Part shown: piece by piece, positions 8,298 to 21,443 of the stretch
Numbering within the stretch: the first letter of the stretch is position 1
Layout of the letters: every line of letters starts with the position of its first letter
DNA from: Acidimicrobiia bacterium
GTDB taxonomy: Bacteria; Actinomycetota; Acidimicrobiia; IMCC26256; PALSA-610
Length of the DNA: 34,758 bases
Direction: 5' to 3'
Assembly (NCBI GenBank): GCA_036271555.1
Contig: DATBAK010000073.1
Coordinates: forward strand, 1-34,758
Notes under the pieces: generated by a model
What the model saw: the letters and a program-made list of their open reading frames with translations, nothing else
Told to the model about the DNA's origin: nothing
Databases searched by the model: none
Program-made: the position numbers and the translations under genes

Positions 8298-8810
8298 TCA
8301 GCTCTGCTGTTCGGCGCGCGCGACCAGCTCGGCGAGGAAGGCGGGCAGGCGACCGGCGCCGAAGTCGAAGCACCGCGCCCATCGCGGCTCGATGCGGATG
8401 CGCGCCATCTGCTCGTACGTGTTGCGCAGGTTGCGTTCGAACTCGGCGAGACCATCCTCGCCGAGCGTCTCGGCCATCCCCTTCGTCGACATCGCGAGGT
8501 ACTCCTCGGCCACGCCGTCGACGATGTCGACGGACGCGGTTCCTCGGATGAACAAGGCCTTGGCTTCACCCGGCGTGTTGCCCGTCTCGATCGTCAGCGC
8601 GACCTCGGGCCGTTCGGAGAGTGCCCGCACCTTCGGCGCGTTCGTCCCGGTGCACACGACGACCTGCGCGCCGTTCCACAGGAAGCCGACGGGCACGACG
8701 CGCGGGAATCCGTCGGGACCGTTGTAGGCCAGGCGCGTCATCGACTCCTTCTCGAGCAGCTCGCGCGCGGCGGGAAGTGCGAGCTCGCTCTCGACCTCTT
8801 GCTCGTTCAT
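8298..8810 (-). CDS. Pyridoxamine-5'-phosphate-oxidase-like protein (third split barrel)
   Basis: 170 residues: LLEKESMTRLAYNGPDGFPRVVPVGFLWNGAQVVVCTGTNAPKVRALSERPEVALTIETG, the common actinobacterial PNPOx-like split barrel that binds FMN, F420 or haem. After the barrel comes a helical stretch (GVAEEYLAMSTKGM..., FERNLRNTYEQMARIRIEPRWARCFDFGAGRLP). Start ATG 8810 is supported by TACCTT exactly 7 nt upstream; an upstream start at 8852 is unlikely. It is divergent from the riboswitch-controlled gene, with no visible functional link. Confidence 0.82.
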   Translation of the reverse strand: MNEQEVESELALPAARELLEKESMTRLAYNGPDGFPRVVPVGFLWNGAQVVVCTGTNAPKVRALSERPEVALTIETGNTPGEAKALFIRGTASVDIVDGVAEEYLAMSTKGMAETLGEDGLAEFERNLRNTYEQMARIRIEPRWARCFDFGAGRLPAFLAELVARAEQQS

Positions 8811-8817
8811 TGGCCGC

Positions 8818-8823
8818 AAGGTA
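8818..8823 (-). promoter_or_regulatory. Leaderless -10 box of the split-barrel gene
   Basis: TACCTT on the minus strand, 7 nt before ATG 8810. Confidence 0.5.
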
Positions 8824-8884
8824 CCCACGTGCGGTCGCGCCGGTGCGCGCAAGGGCGCGGCCGGGCGCGAACGCGACCCGTCCT

Positions 8885-8990
8885 GTTATGGTCCCGCCGA
8901 GCCCGCGGGGGAAGTTCGGTGAGATCCCGACGCTGACCCGCAACTGTGATCACCGGTTCGGCCGGTGTGAGCCAGATCACCCGCTCGGCT
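8885..8990 (+). ncRNA. Cobalamin (B12) riboswitch, compact form
   Basis: The conserved core can be followed in order: TTATGGTCCCG at the 5' side, GGGGAAGTTCGGTGAGATCCCG (8907-8929, the GGTG and TCC elements), GCTGACCCGCAACTGTGA (8932-8949, matching the consensus CCCGCNACTGT), a small hairpin CACCGG-TTCGG-CCGGTG, then GAGCCAGATCACCCGC (matching AGCCAG-N3-ACC). It is short, with a minimal variable arm, which may place it among compact class-II-like cobalamin switches (inference). Downstream up to the AGGAGG at 9064-9069 lie hairpins at 8993-9008 and 9021-9036 and the arms CTCGG/CCGAG (8984-8988, 9017-9021) that could form the expression platform. It controls one gene only, at 9075. Confidence 0.88.
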
Positions 8991-9074
8991 CCACCGACGA
9001 CCGTCGGTAAACCCAACCGAGTCGCCTTCGAGCGACAAAACAGGCTCTCGAGGTACGGGGCCGAGGAGGAAATG

Positions 9075-10118
9075 ATGCGACGTCTCCGTCGTCCGCGCGC
9101 CGTGATCGGCGCGCTCTGCGCCGTGCTGTTGCTCGGCGCGTTCCGCTTCACCGGATTTCACGACGTCCGCGCGAAGCAGGCCGCCTCGCGCGGCGCACAG
9201 TGGATCAGCGGTCAGCAGTTGGCCGATGGCAGCTTCGAGACCGCGGGCTTCCCCGGGTTCGAGACACCCGACGCCGTGCTCGCGATCGCCGAGAGCGCGC
9301 AGACCACGCCCAAGTGGAACAAGCAGAGGGCGTTGCACGTGATCGAGGACACGACGACGAACGGCGTCGGCGTGCTGCACGCGCTCGACGACTTCGCCGA
9401 CAGCGGCATCGACGCGGGCCAGGCGGCGAAGCTCGTCGTGCTCGACGCGAAGCCGCTCGGAATCTCGACGACGAACTTCAATCCCGATCACGACAAGAAG
9501 AAGGCCGACCTCCAGGCGATCATCAAGGCCGGCGCGCAGGCGAACGGCTCCTACGGGGCGTTCAACGCGACGTTGTACGCGGCGATCGCACTCCGTCTGA
9601 CCCACGGCTCGGTTCCGGCGAAGACCCTCGCGTTCATCCGCGACGCGCAGCAGGCCAACGGAGGTTGGAACTTCGCCGGCGACCCGACCGGCACCGACGA
9701 CGACATCGACACCACCGGCCTCGCGATCCAGGCGCTCGCGGCAGCGAAGGTCTCGAAGAACGACGCGACGTTGCGCGACGCGCTCACGTTCCTCGCCGAC
9801 CGGCAGCAGTCGACGGGCGCATGGCAGTCGTTCGGCAGCGACGACCCGAACTCCACATCGGTCGCGGTCGTCGCGATCACCGCCGCCGGCTACAACCCGT
9901 ACGTCGCGTGCTGGCGCAACGCGAGCGACCCGGACCTCTCGGGCCACCCGTACACGTCACCGATCGTGTGGCTGCGCGGCCAGCAGGAGGCGAACGGACA
10001 TATCAGGAGCCCGAACGACGGCTTCGGCGTCAACACCTTCTCGACGTCGCAGACGGTCGAAGCGCTGCGTCGTGAGTGGACCCCGGTGACACCGCTCGGT
10101 CGCCAGCCCTGCGGATGA
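9075..10118 (+). CDS. Secreted or anchored alpha/alpha-barrel-like protein under B12 riboswitch
   Basis: 347 residues. A basic N-terminus and a hydrophobic stretch (RRPRAVIGALCAVLLLGAF) give a signal peptide or anchor. The rest has repeats of the prenyltransferase/squalene-cyclase type: QWISGQQLADGSFETAG, FIRDAQQANGGWNFAG, FLADRQQSTGAWQSFG and WLRGQQEANGHI, each followed by a helix such as DTTGLAIQALAAAK or NSTSVAVVAITAAG. This pattern builds an alpha6/alpha6 barrel, the same general fold as the cobalamin-binding domain of intrinsic factor and transcobalamin. The only visible control is the cobalamin riboswitch upstream, so a B12-capture role is a strong inference. AGGAGG at 9064-9069 favours ATG 9075 (5-nt spacing) over ATG 9072. 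No cyclase acid motif (DxDD) is seen. Confidence 0.78.
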   Translation: MRRLRRPRAVIGALCAVLLLGAFRFTGFHDVRAKQAASRGAQWISGQQLADGSFETAGFPGFETPDAVLAIAESAQTTPKWNKQRALHVIEDTTTNGVGVLHALDDFADSGIDAGQAAKLVVLDAKPLGISTTNFNPDHDKKKADLQAIIKAGAQANGSYGAFNATLYAAIALRLTHGSVPAKTLAFIRDAQQANGGWNFAGDPTGTDDDIDTTGLAIQALAAAKVSKNDATLRDALTFLADRQQSTGAWQSFGSDDPNSTSVAVVAITAAGYNPYVACWRNASDPDLSGHPYTSPIVWLRGQQEANGHIRSPNDGFGVNTFSTSQTVEALRREWTPVTPLGRQPCG

Positions 10119-10148: not shown

Positions 10149-10589
10149 TCAACGCGCGCCGAAGGTGCGCTGCAGGCCGGCGATCAGGTCGGCGCGCTCC
10201 TGCTTCGACAGCTTCACCTCGTGGTGGAACCACGGGTACCACCCCGGCGGCATCGAGCCGTCGGAGACCGTCTGCGTGATCGCGCCCGCGGACTCGTGCG
10301 GCGACTCGGCCCACGCGGAGAAGTCGAGGGCCGTGCGCGCCTTGTTCACTTCCTTCGCCGCGACCCACGAGAACGGCGCGACCTGCGTGTACCAGTGTCG
10401 CTTCGTCTCGTTGCTGTGGCAGTCGTAACACGACGCGACGACGAGCGTTCGCGTCTTCGCGCTGTCCCACTTCGGTTCGTCGACGACCGGTGGATTCTTC
10501 AACCGGTACGGCACGAATTGGATGAGGACGAACACGATCACGAGCATCGTGAAGAACCACCGGAAGAGGCGGAACAGCAGGCCGAACAC
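10149..10589 (-). CDS. Membrane-anchored haem-binding domain protein
   Basis: 146 residues. The N-terminal membrane helix (LFRWFFTMLVIVFVLIQFV, about 7-26) anchors an outside domain with a c-type haem motif, CYDCH at residues 54-58. The later MPPGWYPWFHHEVKLSKQERADL provides a Met that could be the axial ligand. SCYDCHSNETKRHWYTQVAPFSWV is the signature of the Haem_bd family of small monohaem proteins. The GTG start lies one base after the stop of the lipoprotein hydrolase gene, so the two form an operon. The electron partner is unknown. Confidence 0.87.
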   Translation of the reverse strand: MFGLLFRLFRWFFTMLVIVFVLIQFVPYRLKNPPVVDEPKWDSAKTRTLVVASCYDCHSNETKRHWYTQVAPFSWVAAKEVNKARTALDFSAWAESPHESAGAITQTVSDGSMPPGWYPWFHHEVKLSKQERADLIAGLQRTFGAR

Positions 10590-14173: not shown

Positions 14174-14257
<84 letters not shown>

Positions 14258-14999: not shown

Positions 15000-15464
15000 G
15001 TGTCCGACGGCGTGCTCACGATCCTGAAGTTCTGCCTGTTCGCGCTCCTCTATCTGTTCCTCGCGCGCGTGGTGTGGACGGTGGTGTCGGAGATGCGGGG
15101 CGCACCGGCACCCGTTCCCGCGCCCGTCGAGGCCCGCCCCGCACCGGCCAAGGCGAAGCCCACGCCCCGCCGACCGTGGCGCCTCGTCGTCCTCGAGCCC
15201 GAGGCCGCGAACGGCCGGACGTTCGAGGTCCACGGCGAGCTCACGATCGGTCGGGCTGCGGGGTGCGGCGTGTCGCTCCCCGACGACACCTACGTGTCGA
15301 ACGTGCACGCGCGCGTGAACGAACGCAACGGCGAGGTCCTGCTCGAAGATCTCGGCTCGACCAACGGCACGCTCGTCGACGGATCGACGATCACCGCGCC
15401 GCGCACCTTGCGCAAGGGTGACCGGATTCAAATCGGCCAGACCGTGCTCGAGGTCGCCCGTTGA
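15000..15464 (+). CDS. fhaB: FhaB-like membrane FHA protein
   Basis: 154 residues. One N-terminal helix (ILKFCLFALLYLFLARVVWTVV, about 8-29), a Pro/Ala-rich linker (APAPVPAPVEARPAPAKAKP), then an FHA domain (about 80-154: LTIGRAAGCGVSLPDDTYVSNVHARV, LEDLGSTNGTLVDG). In relatives this protein (FipA) links the kinase to the division machinery by reading phosphothreonine. The GTG start is 4 bp after the fhaA stop. Its TGA shares bases with the TTG start of pstP (15461-15464), so the two are translationally coupled. Confidence 0.92.
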   Translation: MSDGVLTILKFCLFALLYLFLARVVWTVVSEMRGAPAPVPAPVEARPAPAKAKPTPRRPWRLVVLEPEAANGRTFEVHGELTIGRAAGCGVSLPDDTYVSNVHARVNERNGEVLLEDLGSTNGTLVDGSTITAPRTLRKGDRIQIGQTVLEVAR

Positions 15465-16663
15465 GGATCGACGCCGGCGCGAGCTCCGACGTCGGGCAGC
15501 TCCGCAGCGGCAACGAGGACAGCTTCCTCGTCGACGACCGGATCTCCCTCTACGCCGTCGCCGACGGCATGGGCGGTCACCAGGGTGGTGAGGTCGCGAG
15601 CGCGACCGCGCTCGAGGCGCTGCGCGCGGCCGTCGCCGGCGGCGACGCGCTCGACGCCGCGATCGTGCGCGCCAACCGTTCGGTGTACGAGAAGGCCGGG
15701 ACCGATCGCGCGCTGCTCGGCATGGGCACGACCCTCACCGCGATCGAGATCCTCGGTGAATCGACGTTCCTGATCGGCCACGTCGGCGACTCGCGCGCGT
15801 ACCGCGTCCGGGACGGCGTGCTCGAGCAGCTCACGGAGGACCACAGCCTCGTCGAAGAGCTCGTGCGTGAAGGCCGGCTCACGCCCGCAGAGGCGAAGGT
15901 CCATCCGCAACGGTCGATCATCACCCGCACGATCGGTGTCGATCCCGACGTCGACGTCGACCTCTACACGCTCGACGCGCGCACCGGCGATCGCATCATC
16001 ATCTGCTCCGACGGGCTCACGACGATGCTCGGCGACGACGAGGTGTCGCACGTCGCGCAGCTCGACGCCGATCCGCGCCTCGCGGCCGACCATCTCGTCG
16101 ACGCGGCCAACGAAGCGGGCGGCGAGGACAACATCACGGTCGTCGTGATCGACGTGCTCGACGCGCCGCCCGCGGGCGCGCCCGATCCGGAGGCGCTCGC
16201 CGCGCGGTCGCGCGCCCGCACGCCGACGCCGCGCACGGCACCCGACGTCTTCATATCGGAGCCGCGCCGCCCGAAGTGGCGCTCCGTCGGCGGCGCACTC
16301 ATGTTCGTCCTGCCCGTCCTGCTCATCGTCGGTGGCGGCATCGGCGCAGTCGACTGGTACGCGCACCACACGTACTTCGTGTCCTTCAGAGGAGACCGCG
16401 TCGTGGTCTACCGCGGCGTGCCCGGCGGAATCCTGGGATGGAAGCCGACGGTGGAAACCACCACCGACCTCGAGAAGTCGAAGCTCACGCCCGACGCCGT
16501 CGACCAGGTGAACCGCTCGGGCAAGGGTTCGCTCGAACGCGCGCAGGACTTCGTCGCCAACCTCGAGAGCTCGACCAGCACGACGACGACCACCACGACC
16601 ACGGTGCCCCACCCGACGACGACACGCCGTAACCCCCCGACCACGGCGAAGGGCGGTCAGTGA
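15461..16663 (+). CDS. pstP: PP2C-family Ser/Thr phosphatase, membrane-bound
   Basis: 400 residues. PP2C domain about 1-233 with the metal-binding motifs SGNEDS (16-21), VADGMGGHQGGE (33-44), GHVGDSRAY (106-114), SDGLTTML (183-190) and GGEDNITVVV (220-229). An Arg/Pro linker, one membrane helix (about 275-297) and a ~100-residue outer domain ending in a Thr-rich tail follow. It reverses the PASTA kinase phosphorylation of division and cell-wall proteins. The start is TTG overlapping the fhaB stop; its stop overlaps the GTG of the SEDS gene. The layout is the same as mycobacterial PstP. Confidence 0.94.
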   Translation: MRIDAGASSDVGQLRSGNEDSFLVDDRISLYAVADGMGGHQGGEVASATALEALRAAVAGGDALDAAIVRANRSVYEKAGTDRALLGMGTTLTAIEILGESTFLIGHVGDSRAYRVRDGVLEQLTEDHSLVEELVREGRLTPAEAKVHPQRSIITRTIGVDPDVDVDLYTLDARTGDRIIICSDGLTTMLGDDEVSHVAQLDADPRLAADHLVDAANEAGGEDNITVVVIDVLDAPPAGAPDPEALAARSRARTPTPRTAPDVFISEPRRPKWRSVGGALMFVLPVLLIVGGGIGAVDWYAHHTYFVSFRGDRVVVYRGVPGGILGWKPTVETTTDLEKSKLTPDAVDQVNRSGKGSLERAQDFVANLESSTSTTTTTTTTVPHPTTTRRNPPTTAKGGQ

Positions 16664-17988
16664 GCAGCATCACGGCGACCGGCCGCAAGCGCCGCAACGC
16701 GGAGCTCGGCCTGGGATTCCTCGCGATCGTCGTGACGATCGGCGGCTACATCCTCCTTGCGCTCGCGCGGGGCCCGAGCCTGCCGCCCGACCTCGCCGCA
16801 CTCGGTGTCGGCGTCGTCGGCCTCTACGTCGCCGCGCACGTCGCGGTGCGCCGGCTCGCGCCCGGGGCCGACGGCACGTTGCTGCCGCTCGCGGCGTTGC
16901 TGAACGGCATCGGGTTCGTGACGATCGCGCGCCTCGACCGCGATCTCGCGCGCATCCAGTCCATCTGGAGCGCGGTCGGCGTCGGTGCGTTCTTCCTCAC
17001 GTTGCTGTTCATCCGGCACGTGCGCAGCCTCGAGCGCTACACGTACACGTTCGCGTTCCTCGCGCTCGGGTTGCTGCTCGTGCCGCTGGTCCCGCACGTC
17101 GGCCTCACGGTGAACGGCGCGCGCATCTGGGCGCACTTCGGCTCGCTGCACTTCCAACCCGGCGAGCCCGCGAAGGTGCTGTGGGTCATCTTCTTCGCGG
17201 GCTACCTCACACAGAAGCGCGAGCTGCTGTCGGCCGGTACGCGCTCGGTCGGGCGGATGCGCCTGCCCGCGGCCCGCCACCTCGGCCCACTCGTCGCGGT
17301 GTGGGGGGTGTCGATCCTCGTGCTCGTGTTCGAGCGCGACCTCGGCTCGTCGCTGCTGTTCTTCGCGGTGTTCGCGGCGATGCTCTACATGGCGACCGAG
17401 CGCAGCGCATACCTGGTCGGTTCGCTCGCGATGTTCAGCGTCGGCGCGGTGACGGCGTTCCACCTCTTCGGGCACGTGCGCGACCGCGTGCAGGGCTGGT
17501 TGAACCCCTGGCCCTACCGCCACTCCGCGAAGGGCTTCCAGATCATCTTGTCGTGGTACGCGTTCGCGGCGGGGGGCGCGTACGGCAAGGGCATCGGGCT
17601 CGGTATTCCGGGCCGTATCCCGTACGCGTCGACCGACTTCATCTTCGCTGCGATCGGCGAAGAGCTCGGTCTCATCGGCGGGCTCGCGGTCGTCATCTGC
17701 TTCCTGCTGATCGTCGGGAGCGGCTTCCGCATCGCGGTCGAGTCGAGCCGGCCGTTCTCGAAGCTGTTCGCAGCCGGACTCACGACGATCCTCGGGCTGC
17801 AGACGTTCATCATCATCGGCGGCGTCACGCGCGTCATCCCGCTCACCGGCATCACGCTGCCGTTCGTGTCGTACGGCGGTTCGTCGCTCGTCGCGAACTT
17901 CGTGATCCTCGCGTTGCTTCTCCGCATGTCGGACGAGAACGCGCGCGACCAGGCCGTCGAGCGCTCCCGCGCGGTGGTCGCGGTATGA
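16660..17988 (+). CDS. rodA: SEDS-family peptidoglycan polymerase (RodA/FtsW)
   Basis: 442 residues with 11-12 membrane helices. SEDS proteins polymerise lipid II glycan strands together with a class B PBP. Signature parts: HVGLTVNGARIWAHFGSLHFQPGEPAKVLWV (the N-G-A-R-W-like loop and the Q-P-[GS]-E motif), the WLNPW loop, SWYAFAAGGAYGKGIGLG, ASTDFIFAAIGEELGLIG and LTGITLPFVSYGGSS. The partner transpeptidase pbpA overlaps its stop (ATGA), supporting a dedicated pair. Called RodA from its place in the cluster; the sequence alone does not clearly separate RodA from FtsW. Confidence 0.94.
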   Translation: MSSITATGRKRRNAELGLGFLAIVVTIGGYILLALARGPSLPPDLAALGVGVVGLYVAAHVAVRRLAPGADGTLLPLAALLNGIGFVTIARLDRDLARIQSIWSAVGVGAFFLTLLFIRHVRSLERYTYTFAFLALGLLLVPLVPHVGLTVNGARIWAHFGSLHFQPGEPAKVLWVIFFAGYLTQKRELLSAGTRSVGRMRLPAARHLGPLVAVWGVSILVLVFERDLGSSLLFFAVFAAMLYMATERSAYLVGSLAMFSVGAVTAFHLFGHVRDRVQGWLNPWPYRHSAKGFQIILSWYAFAAGGAYGKGIGLGIPGRIPYASTDFIFAAIGEELGLIGGLAVVICFLLIVGSGFRIAVESSRPFSKLFAAGLTTILGLQTFIIIGGVTRVIPLTGITLPFVSYGGSSLVANFVILALLLRMSDENARDQAVERSRAVVAV

Positions 17989-19457
17989 ACCGCGCCATCC
18001 GTCGCGTCGGCATCGTCGTCGTGCTGCTGTTCATCGCACTCAGCGGCCAGCTGACCTACCTGCAGCTCGTCCGCGCGAACAGCCTCAACCACGACCCGAA
18101 CAACGTGCGCGTCGTCACCGCCGACTTCGTCCGCCCGCGCGGCAACATCGTGTCCTCCGACGGCGCGGTGCTCGCGCGCTCGGTCGGGAGCAACGACGAG
18201 CTCAAGTACCAGCGCCAGTACCCGCTGGGATCCCTCTTCTCGCAGATCGTCGGCTACCAGTCGGTCACGATCGGCAACACCGGCGTCGAGAAGCAGTACG
18301 ACTCCGAATTGCTCGGGCGCGACATCAAGCTCCAGACGCACAGCCTCTCCGACCTGCTGAACCCGCAGACGAACACGGGCACGGTCGTCCTCACGCTCTC
18401 GAAGACCGCGCAGCAGACCGCGCAGACCGCACTCAACGGAAGGCGGGGCTCGGTCGTCGTACTCGACGTGAAGACCGGCGGGATCGTCGCGATGTACTCG
18501 AACCCCACGTTCGATCCGACGCCGCTCGCGAGCCACAACACGACGCTCGTGCAGAAGTACTTCGACCTGCTCGAGGCCAACCCGATCAAGCCCGACCTCC
18601 CGCGCGCGTATCGCGAGCGCTATCCGTCGGGGTCGACGTACAAGGTGATCACCAGCGCGATCGCGCTCGACGACGGCATCGTCAACCCGCAGACACCGTT
18701 CCCCGAGCTCACGACGCTCCCGCTACCGCAGACGACGCACACGCTCTCCAACTTCGGCGGGGAGCGCTGTGGCGGCACGCTCGCGGAGAGCTTCACCGTG
18801 TCGTGCAACACGACGTTCGCGCGCATCGGCCTCACCCTCGGCGACCGGCTCGCGGAGGGCGCGTTGCCGTTCGGCATCAACGGCGACGCGCCGCCGCTCG
18901 ACCTCTCGCCCGGCGCCGCGAGCAGCGTCGGTCCCGTGGCGGGAACCTTTCGCGACAACATGCCGGTCTTCGCGGAGAGCGCGATCGGCCAGGACGCCGT
19001 CGCGGTCACCCCACTCGAGATGGCGCTCGTCGCGGAGTCCGTCGCCGACGGCGGCGAGATCATGGTGCCGCACGTGATGAGCGAGATCCGTGCCTCCGAC
19101 GGCACCGTCGTGCGCCGCTACACGCCGAAGGTCTGGCGCCGCGCGATGACACCCGCGACGGCGACGATCCTCAACCAGTTCATGCAGTCGGTCGTCGCCG
19201 ATCCCCATGGCACCGGCACCGCGGCCCGCATCGCGGGCATCACCGTCGCGGGCAAGACCGGCACTGCAGAAGTGCCCGACGGGCACCCGCACACGTGGTT
19301 CATCGCGTTCGCGCCCGCCGAGGCACCGCGCTACGCGGTCGCGGTGCTCGTCGAGCACGGCGGCGACAAGAACAGCGAGTCGACCGGCGGTCGCGTCGCG
19401 GCACCGGTGGCCGCGCAGCTCCTGACGGCACTGCTGAAGGGCCCGGCAAATGGCTGA
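17985..19457 (+). CDS. pbpA: Class B penicillin-binding protein (transpeptidase)
   Basis: 490 residues. N-terminal anchor (VGIVVVLLFIALSGQLTYLQLVRA, about 8-31), a short dimerisation region (RPRGNIVSSDGAVLARSV), then the transpeptidase domain: active-site STYK with Ser217, SCN about 50 residues later, and GKTGTAE near the end. It crosslinks peptidoglycan outside the membrane as partner of the SEDS polymerase just upstream. Typical size for actinobacterial PbpA, with no PASTA domains of its own. Overlaps the previous stop by 4 bp. Confidence 0.95.
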   Translation: MNRAIRRVGIVVVLLFIALSGQLTYLQLVRANSLNHDPNNVRVVTADFVRPRGNIVSSDGAVLARSVGSNDELKYQRQYPLGSLFSQIVGYQSVTIGNTGVEKQYDSELLGRDIKLQTHSLSDLLNPQTNTGTVVLTLSKTAQQTAQTALNGRRGSVVVLDVKTGGIVAMYSNPTFDPTPLASHNTTLVQKYFDLLEANPIKPDLPRAYRERYPSGSTYKVITSAIALDDGIVNPQTPFPELTTLPLPQTTHTLSNFGGERCGGTLAESFTVSCNTTFARIGLTLGDRLAEGALPFGINGDAPPLDLSPGAASSVGPVAGTFRDNMPVFAESAIGQDAVAVTPLEMALVAESVADGGEIMVPHVMSEIRASDGTVVRRYTPKVWRRAMTPATATILNQFMQSVVADPHGTGTAARIAGITVAGKTGTAEVPDGHPHTWFIAFAPAEAPRYAVAVLVEHGGDKNSESTGGRVAAPVAAQLLTALLKGPANG

Positions 19458-19526
19458 GGAACGAGCCGTCGTCACCCCCGAGCGACCGCGGCGGCTCGAC
19501 GGCGCACCACTAGGGTTCGGCCCGAA

Positions 19527-21443
19527 ATGACCCTGGTCGGACGCGTCTTCACCAACCGCTACGAGATCCAACGCGAGATCGCCCAGGGCGGGATGGCCGA
19601 GGTCTACCTCGCGCGCGACCAGCTCCTCGACCGGCCGGTCGCGCTCAAGGTGCTGCACCCCGAGTACGCGCGCGAGCAGACGTTCGTCGAGCGGTTCCGC
19701 CGCGAAGCGCAGGCCGCCGCGAACCTCAATCACCCGAACATCGTCGCGATCTACGACTGGGGTCAGGACGGCGGCAACTACTTCATCGTGATGGAGTACG
19801 TCGAGGGGCGCTCGCTGCGCGACCTCATGCGCGCGGAAGGCCCGCTCGAGGCGCAGCGCGCGGCCGACATCGCGATCGAGATCGCGGCCGCGTTGTCGTT
19901 CGCGCACCAGAACGGCGTCGTGCACCGCGACGTGAAGCCCGGCAACGTGCTCATCACACCGACGGGAACCGTGAAGGTCACCGACTTCGGCATCGCGCGC
20001 GCGGGTACGAGCGAGAACCTCACCCAGACCGGCTCGGTCATGGGTACCGCGACGTACTTCTCACCCGAGCAGGCCCAGGGACTCGCGGTCGACGGCCGCA
20101 GCGACGTGTACTCGCTCGGCGTCGTGCTCTACGAGATGGTCACGGGGCTCGCGCCGTTCAGCGGCGAAGCGCCCCTCGCGGTCGCGCTGAAGCACGTGCG
20201 CGAAGAGCCGATCCCGCCGTCCGCGCGCAACCAGGCGGTCCCGCCCGCGTTCGAGCAGATCGTCCTCGCCGCGATGGCGAAGGACGCCGACCAGCGCTAC
20301 CAATCGGCCGACGAGCTGCGCGCCGACCTCCTGCGCTTCCGGCGCGGGCGCCCGCTCGCGAGCACACCCGTCACCGCGATGATCGCGACGACTCCCCCGC
20401 AGCCGACCGGCGCCGCGGTCGCGGCCGCCGACGCGACGCAGGCCGCGCCGCGCGTCGCACCCGTTGCCGCCGCGACCCGGCCGCGTCCCCCCGGCCGCAG
20501 CCGCGCCGCCCGCCTCTTCACGACGGCGGTCGTGCTGCTCCTGCTCGTGCTCGTGGTCGGCGGGATCCTCCTGCTCGCGACGGTGAACGGCAAGAACTCG
20601 GGAACGCTCGAGGTTCCCGATGTCACCAAGGTCTCGCAGACGCAAGCGCGCCAGACGCTCACCGACGACGGCTTCGCGGTGAAGGTCACGCTCGTGACGA
20701 ACGCGACGAAGCCGGTGAACCAGGTGATCAGCCAGGACCCGAACGGCGGCACGCGCGCGAAGAAGGGTTCGACGGTCACGCTCACCGTGAGCAAGGGCAG
20801 CGGCGAGATCAAGGTGCCCGACCTGTCGGGGCGCACGGTTCCCGACGCGACCAACGTGCTCAAGTCCGACGGTCTGAAGGTCGGCAGCGTCTCGCAAGAA
20901 GCGAGCGACTCGGTGCCGGTCAACACGATCATCCGCACCGATCCGGCCTCGGGCACGTCGGTCGGTCGCGGCTTCGCGGTGAAGCTCGTCGTCTCGTCGG
21001 GTCCGCAGCCGGTGCCGGTCCCGAACGTGCTCAACGAGCCCGTGAACACTGCGTTCTCGCAGCTTCAACACGCGGGCTTCATCGTCTTCCAGACCCAGGC
21101 CGCGTCCGACACCGTCCCTTCCGGCAGCGTCATCTCGACGAATCCGGCTCCGAACACACCGGCGCCGAAGGGCAGCCGGGTCACGGTCGTCGTCTCGACC
21201 GGTGCGCAGATGGTCACCGTCGACGACGTGACCGGACAGAGTGAAGGCGCCGCGAAGTCGGACCTCGAGAACCAGGGCTTCGTCGTCGTCATCGTGCACA
21301 CGCCGTCGACGCCGGCAAACGTCGGCAAGGTCATCAGCCAGGATCCGCAGGGCGGCACGCAGCAGAAGAAGGGCACGACGATCGTGCTCACGGTCGGCGA
21401 GTCGACCACGACGACGTCCGGCGGCACGACCACCACGACCTGA
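19527..21443 (+). CDS. pknB: Ser/Thr protein kinase with four PASTA domains
   Basis: 638 residues. Kinase domain about 12-272: GGMAEVYLARD, Lys41 in VALKVL, HRDVKPGN with catalytic Asp135, DFGIAR with Asp153, and a Thr-rich activation loop (SENLTQTGSVMGTATYFSPEQ). A Pro/Ala juxtamembrane part, membrane helix about 330-352, then four PASTA units beginning VPDVTKVSQTQA, VPDLSGRTVPDA, VPNVLNEPVNTA and VDDVTGQSEGAA, and a Thr-rich end. PASTA units sense muropeptides or lipid II outside, and the kinase then adjusts division and wall synthesis. TAGGGT lies 10 nt before the ATG, so it may have its own promoter in the 69-bp gap. No pknA-like second kinase is present. Confidence 0.95.
   Translation: MTLVGRVFTNRYEIQREIAQGGMAEVYLARDQLLDRPVALKVLHPEYAREQTFVERFRREAQAAANLNHPNIVAIYDWGQDGGNYFIVMEYVEGRSLRDLMRAEGPLEAQRAADIAIEIAAALSFAHQNGVVHRDVKPGNVLITPTGTVKVTDFGIARAGTSENLTQTGSVMGTATYFSPEQAQGLAVDGRSDVYSLGVVLYEMVTGLAPFSGEAPLAVALKHVREEPIPPSARNQAVPPAFEQIVLAAMAKDADQRYQSADELRADLLRFRRGRPLASTPVTAMIATTPPQPTGAAVAAADATQAAPRVAPVAAATRPRPPGRSRAARLFTTAVVLLLLVLVVGGILLLATVNGKNSGTLEVPDVTKVSQTQARQTLTDDGFAVKVTLVTNATKPVNQVISQDPNGGTRAKKGSTVTLTVSKGSGEIKVPDLSGRTVPDATNVLKSDGLKVGSVSQEASDSVPVNTIIRTDPASGTSVGRGFAVKLVVSSGPQPVPVPNVLNEPVNTAFSQLQHAGFIVFQTQAASDTVPSGSVISTNPAPNTPAPKGSRVTVVVSTGAQMVTVDDVTGQSEGAAKSDLENQGFVVVIVHTPSTPANVGKVISQDPQGGTQQKKGTTIVLTVGESTTTTSGGTTTTT

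Follow-up and report, generated by a model that had tools for sequence, protein, structure and literature searches.

The lone gene behind a compact cobalamin riboswitch in a contig of an Acidimicrobiia bacterium (34,758 nucleotides, referred to as the window) probably encodes the alpha half of a split, transcobalamin-like extracellular corrinoid receptor that feeds an ECF importer. This assignment is based on observed cobalamin switches, the pairing of the gene with a second exported family (beta), alpha-beta fusions, ECF neighbours, the co-occurrence of the two families, the fold of the alpha protein and the absence of CbiC. A preliminary description had proposed an extracellular cobalamin binder. 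An exported capture protein, and not a terpene enzyme, is well supported, mainly by evidence beyond that description (the conserved switches, the beta partner, the ECF genes, the fusions and the CbiC absence), but the protein probably provides half of a binding site and does not act as a stand-alone binder. The features of the gene and its leader are as follows.

8882-9002, plus strand: aptamer of a cobalamin riboswitch (RF00174), compact form, found with cmscan
8989-8992 (CUCC) and 9065-9068 (GGAG), plus strand: predicted pairing in a fold of 8988-9080
8993-9008, plus strand: hairpin ACCGAC-GACC-GUCGGU, candidate P13/L13 element, from a single-strand fold
9043-9062, plus strand: hairpin GGCUC...GGGCC of the expression platform, immediately 5' of the Shine-Dalgarno sequence, with conservation and covariation among relatives
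9065-9069, plus strand: Shine-Dalgarno sequence GGAGG, read from the sequence
9072-10118, plus strand: exported alpha/alpha-barrel protein of 348 amino acids, proposed alpha subunit of the split transcobalamin-like corrinoid receptor
9096-9155, plus strand: stretch of hydrophobic residues at the N-terminus, either a signal peptide or an anchor, from the sequence and homologue comparison
9255-9275, plus strand: GFETPDA (residues 62-68), the most conserved motif of the family in a 40-sequence alignment
9702-9716, plus strand: DIDTT (residues 211-215), at the place of DxDD(T) in type II cyclases, in the same alignment

The neighbours on either side (8298-8852 and 10149-10589) are encoded on the minus strand, which leaves 9072-10118 as the only gene behind the switch, as had been described. 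Its start may be 9072 or the next ATG at 9075, which is spaced slightly better from GGAGG. Close homologues carry a lipobox, at the position of which the window protein has Ala-Phe and no lipobox Cys, and more distant homologues in the 40-sequence alignment have LPxTG-like tails. Together with the hydrophobic N-terminus, these features indicate that alpha is an exported protein, as a rule anchored in relatives, in agreement with the secreted or anchored protein suggested earlier. The window protein was not found on the plasmid records searched.

The alpha proteins of one group (L021, L022, L024, L025 and L030-L033) terminate precisely at PRFTG or ...LTG, without a membrane helix downstream, and an unrelated exported protein nearby (L044 6608-7555) ends in KLTG; these ends are possibly an unrecognized C-terminal sorting or processing signal. 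Elsewhere in the window, positions 15461-21443 contain a cluster of a common actinobacterial type, with genes for a PP2C phosphatase, an FtsW/RodA-like protein, a penicillin-binding protein and a PASTA-type Ser/Thr kinase, and a tRNA gene is located at 14174-14257 on the minus strand (RF00005, 53.8 bits).

The clear switch core of the preliminary description was recovered by covariance search: the window aptamer belongs to RF00174 with 39.0 bits, above the gathering score of 31.5, and with E-values of 1.3e-6 over the whole window and 1.8e-8 in a scan of the 501-base neighbourhood. It comprises 121 nucleotides compared with 189 model positions, and in the alignment to the model approximately 50 positions of the P6 extension are replaced by a short UUCG-capped hairpin. 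This compactness is only suggestive of selectivity for hydroxo- or methylcobalamin (Class II). Despite the modest score, the match is not due to chance, because the same RNA family was found upstream on the same strand at 28 of 29 homologous loci; the 29th (L018) lies on a truncated contig with only 166 bases of upstream sequence. Homologues in other genomes thus also follow cobalamin switches, a point that the preliminary description had proposed to check. The hairpin at 8993-9008 may act as the P13/L13 element known from cobalamin riboswitches.

The expression-platform hairpin is common to the leaders in the form GGCCC-UCGUGGAAAG-GGGCC, ending 0-4 nucleotides 5' of GGAGG. Over 22 distinct leaders, including those of the window gene and of the beta gene in the same genome, 124 of 132 pairs were formed, compared with 112.9 +/- 2.1 when the 3' arms were swapped between leaders, and compensatory changes were observed (GAGC..GCUC, GAAC..GUUC and CGAC..GUCG). 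The arms were paired by arm matching, with partners picked for best pairing in the observed and shuffled sets alike; this procedure replaced a MAFFT alignment, the register of which was wrong for hairpin rows with an extra base. The single-sequence fold energy of the window hairpin was no better than that of shuffled sequences (z 0.44), and its support lies entirely in the comparison across leaders. A conserved and covarying hairpin next to the Shine-Dalgarno sequence suggests control at the translation start, the direction of which we infer.

Homologues of alpha were identified in 34 of the 58 genomes of the order, and in two of the 28 switch-bearing loci a beta gene is placed between the switch and alpha. 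Among the 39 cobalamin switches scoring above the cut-off in alpha-carrying genomes, 36 directly precede alpha (29) or beta (7), which makes the alpha/beta pair the greater part of the visible B12 regulon in these genomes. Tandem cobalamin switches precede alpha in two genomes (G016:C423:2187-2317 and 2415-2524; G044:C1:351764-351832 and 351513-351582), the second copy scoring slightly below the cut-off in each case.

The beta family adjoins alpha in most relatives, among them the cultivable IMCC26256 (L075), is present in 30 of the 40 named alpha loci and has a conserved core ending in D-G-D-V-E-G-W. DUF4430 is the domain of the transcobalamin C-terminus (PMC4350170). It is this part of transcobalamin that shuts over B12. 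A six-frame search of the order with the DUF4430 profile gave no match, and the beta family was therefore traced through neighbouring genes and an alignment built for the family itself. Neighbour genes were in part recognized by eye in simple ORF calls, and several of the genomes are incomplete. SCO2322_fam (NF040672) is matched by 26 of 30 beta members and DUF4430 by 6 of 30 (best E 7.7e-7), and a search of the PDB with the beta profile matched no chain. The family occurs in 33 of the 34 alpha-carrying genomes and in 1 of the 24 others, i.e. 33 genomes have both alpha and beta, one has alpha only, one has beta only and 23 have neither, in a tally from which, on our reading, two weak beta matches covering the tail only were dropped (Fisher p 6e-14, uncorrected for relatedness or shared descent). 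The alpha carrier in which beta was not found (G017) is 90% complete.

Alpha and beta are encoded in one reading frame at three loci (L085, L127 and L133), and cobalamin switches are located upstream of the frames in L127 and L133. The frame in L085 is the same as L037 8029-10695 (G049), in which a single open frame runs from alpha through an LPRTG-type anchor and another signal-like segment to beta; this may represent a genuine fusion, or the arrangement may be polyprotein-like or overlapping. Two alpha paralogues on either side of beta were found in L040 (9371-11140 and 12187-14082) and also in L041, and these paralogues bear C-terminal 'GYWLVAADGGIFSFGDA'-type repeats, which may bind the cell surface.

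Genes for ECF T, A and S components reside beside alpha and/or beta in relatives, and beside beta only in the window's own genome. Three cobalamin switches are present in this genome, the first being that of the window; the features around the second are listed below.

C57:61670-61761, minus strand: second cobalamin switch of the genome, before the beta protein
L050 8687-9577, minus strand: beta protein (contig C57)
L050 9829-10992, divergent from beta: ECF T component

A frame for a double ATPase and an S-component gene run with the T gene, divergently from beta. The T component is a weak match to CbiQ, and the homologous genes of L036 match the ECF ATPase and ECF_trnsprt models. The beta protein itself shows a weak SCO2322 match and no Pfam match. 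In this genome, separate contigs carry alpha and beta, each gene with its own switch, and this split layout with two switches was found in five genomes (the window's own, G004, G016, G018 and G029). The third switch, the strongest in the assembly (95.6 bits; contig C94, L049 8992-9162), precedes a ribonucleotide reductase gene. The other proteins of C94 are unlike those of the rest of the genome, assembly contamination is listed as 4.45%, and this contig is probably contamination.

CbiC/CobH is a corrin-ring enzyme common to both routes of B12 synthesis. It was found in 4 of the 58 genomes, in none of the 34 alpha carriers and not in the window's own genome. The latter encodes four strong B12-binding domains, in frames recognizable as MetH and methylmalonyl-CoA mutase, and therefore appears to belong to a B12 scavenger, lacking CbiC yet having these enzymes.

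In Pfam, the window protein matches SQHop_cyclase_C (29.2 bits, cut-off 26.1), and it shows a partial match of approximately 100 residues to SCO2321_fam (NF053823) with 38.6 bits, below the cut-off of 300. AlphaFold2 run on the 40-sequence alignment gave an alpha/alpha barrel with a pLDDT of 92.9 and a pTM of 0.90, as had been predicted from the repeats; this model was used in place of that from the single sequence, which was not usable (pLDDT 37). Structural comparison places squalene-hopene cyclases nearest (Z 25, 2.6 A over 259 residues), and glycosidase toroids reach Z 18-20. Human transcobalamin (7qbf_A) was matched by Foldseek at rank 45 with an E-value of 1e-3, a probability of 1.00, a TM of 0.47 by query and about 12% sequence identity. 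It was not among the 50 VIA-align matches listed, which is no evidence either way, and profile searches of the PDB listed terpene cyclases and TED domains and did not find intrinsic factor or transcobalamin. Of the animal B12 carriers to which the fold had been likened earlier, transcobalamin is thus present among the matches, but only at rank 45 and with terpene cyclases as the best ones, and the fold alone fits both readings. The absence of a cyclase acid motif was borne out: DxDD occurs at this position in none of the 40 alpha sequences, the consensus being D-x-D-T-T. Besides GFETPDA, the residues DPNST (258-262) are conserved.

In transcobalamin and intrinsic factor, two domains sandwich one B12 molecule. 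By analogy, the alpha barrel and the beta-type protein, exported separately, would close over one corrinoid at the cell surface, and the captured corrinoid would be passed to the S component of the ECF transporter whose T, double-ATPase and S genes lie beside beta. Each of the two mRNAs would be governed by its own cobalamin riboswitch, low intracellular B12 releasing translation that is otherwise prevented by sequestering of the Shine-Dalgarno sequence. The imported corrinoid would serve MetH and methylmalonyl-CoA mutase, because the cell has no corrin-ring synthesis.

Two observations on beta count against the split receptor: the beta protein of the window's own genome has no Pfam match and only a weak one to SCO2322, and no beta was found in G017. 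The nearest structural and profile relatives of alpha are squalene-hopene cyclases and not transcobalamin, which speaks against a split receptor and in favour of a type II terpene cyclase, or an enzyme resembling prenyltransferases, whose regulation by B12 would be fortuitous. Such an enzyme is nevertheless very improbable, since alpha is exported, consists of a single small barrel, lacks DxDD at the catalytic position in all 40 sequences and is consistently associated with beta, ECF genes and cobalamin switches. Nor did the neighbouring genes inspected in ten loci include any recognized terpene gene. The similarity to glycosidase toroids might instead point to an extracellular alpha/alpha-toroid protein, carbohydrate-active or of some other function, with an incidental link to the switch, an explanation that we consider the most remote, as it is contradicted by the switch at 28 of 29 loci and by the near-perfect co-occurrence with beta.

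An alternative closer to the split receptor, unlikely but deserving more weight than the preceding two, is a protein of a B12-uptake system that does not itself bind cobalamin, serving as a wall scaffold for beta or binding cobinamide, a lower-ligand base or cobalt. The gene context indicates a B12 regulon and an ECF importer and does not name the ligand, which could be another corrinoid or a precursor, and CbiQ/CbiO-type ECF genes also move cobalt. Against this alternative, alpha fused to a DUF4430-like domain repeats the transcobalamin layout, in which the barrel contributes a large share of the binding site, and hosts without CbiC, as all alpha carriers are, would gain little from cobalt or early precursors. 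Other ligands were left possible by Burroughs et al. and their reviewer (PMC1796856) for related bacterial proteins. The split, corrinoid-binding receptor is accordingly the reading that we prefer.

We tentatively extend this reading to a plausible generalization, held with less confidence than the assignment of the window gene: Actinomycetota may use a two-protein split transcobalamin, separately riboswitched, that delivers surface-bound B12 to a dedicated ECF importer. This would be the main route of B12 entry in the lineage and would give a function to SCO2321/SCO2322-type proteins, and the alpha-beta fusions of the same phylum would represent a bacterial analogue of the animal carriers or a relative of their source. 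Corrin synthesis is missing from many uncultured actinobacteria of this group, which have to scavenge B12 although their extracellular capture proteins are unnamed. If the proposal is correct, relatives of SCO2321 and SCO2322, carried as uncharacterized in databases, would acquire a testable function, the transcobalamin principle would be seen divided between two separately switched genes, and simple bacterial proteins would become available for testing the origin of the animal B12 carriers and two-domain assembly round a ligand.

Several known systems resemble the proposed one in part. The squalene-hopene and other type II terpene cyclases are closest in fold and profile; unlike them, alpha has no DxDD, is exported and belongs to a B12 regulon. 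Animal transcobalamin, intrinsic factor and haptocorrin likewise combine an alpha/alpha barrel with a beta domain, the arrangement proposed here, but they are single chains, whereas the proposed system would consist of two proteins, and profile searches with alpha gave no match to them. Of the Streptomyces families, SCO2321_fam is matched partially by alpha and SCO2322_fam by most beta members. At the locus of one full-length SCO2321_fam member (L118), alpha, beta and a CbiQ-type gene occur in succession; no cobalamin switch was found in the flanking sequence examined of the two full-length members. Among 20 loci elsewhere in the phylum that were selected with SCO2321_fam, 15 code for a beta-type protein, either in a fusion or close by, and 7 have a cobalamin or AdoCbl switch. 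For the last step, the proposed importer is of the class of the ECF-CbrT vitamin B12 transporter (PMC5997447); in that paper, transcobalamin and intrinsic factor appear in the reference list only, and an extracellular toroid/beta receptor is not discussed.

The closest precedent is the work of Burroughs, Balaji, Iyer and Aravind (2007, PMC1796856), who described a transcobalamin C-terminal-like SLBB clade in bacteria, fused to alpha/alpha toroids, with operons containing CbiO and CbiQ, Gram-positive anchors and hosts usually without B12 synthesis, and predicted these proteins to be B12 scavengers. Our search of the open-access literature (SCO2321, DUF4430 and transcobalamin-like bacterial proteins; subscription papers were outside its scope) found no experimental test of a bacterial toroid/beta pair. 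The present system shares with theirs the exported toroid and the link to CbiO/CbiQ-type ECF genes. A transcobalamin-C-terminal-like domain may be a further common feature, since the partner family, adjacent or fused to alpha in most relatives, includes DUF4430 matches, although the beta protein of the window's own genome is not one of them. It differs in its hosts, which are Actinomycetota (relatives within Acidimicrobiia) and not the low-GC Gram-positives, planctomycetes and some euryarchaea listed for the SLBB clade; in the toroid being a separate protein, which in the window's own genome is even encoded on a different contig from beta, behind a switch of its own; and in its beta members, most of which are missed by the DUF4430 profile. 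The general kind was already predicted by Burroughs et al., and the new elements are the actinobacterial group, the split under separate switches and the conserved platform hairpin.
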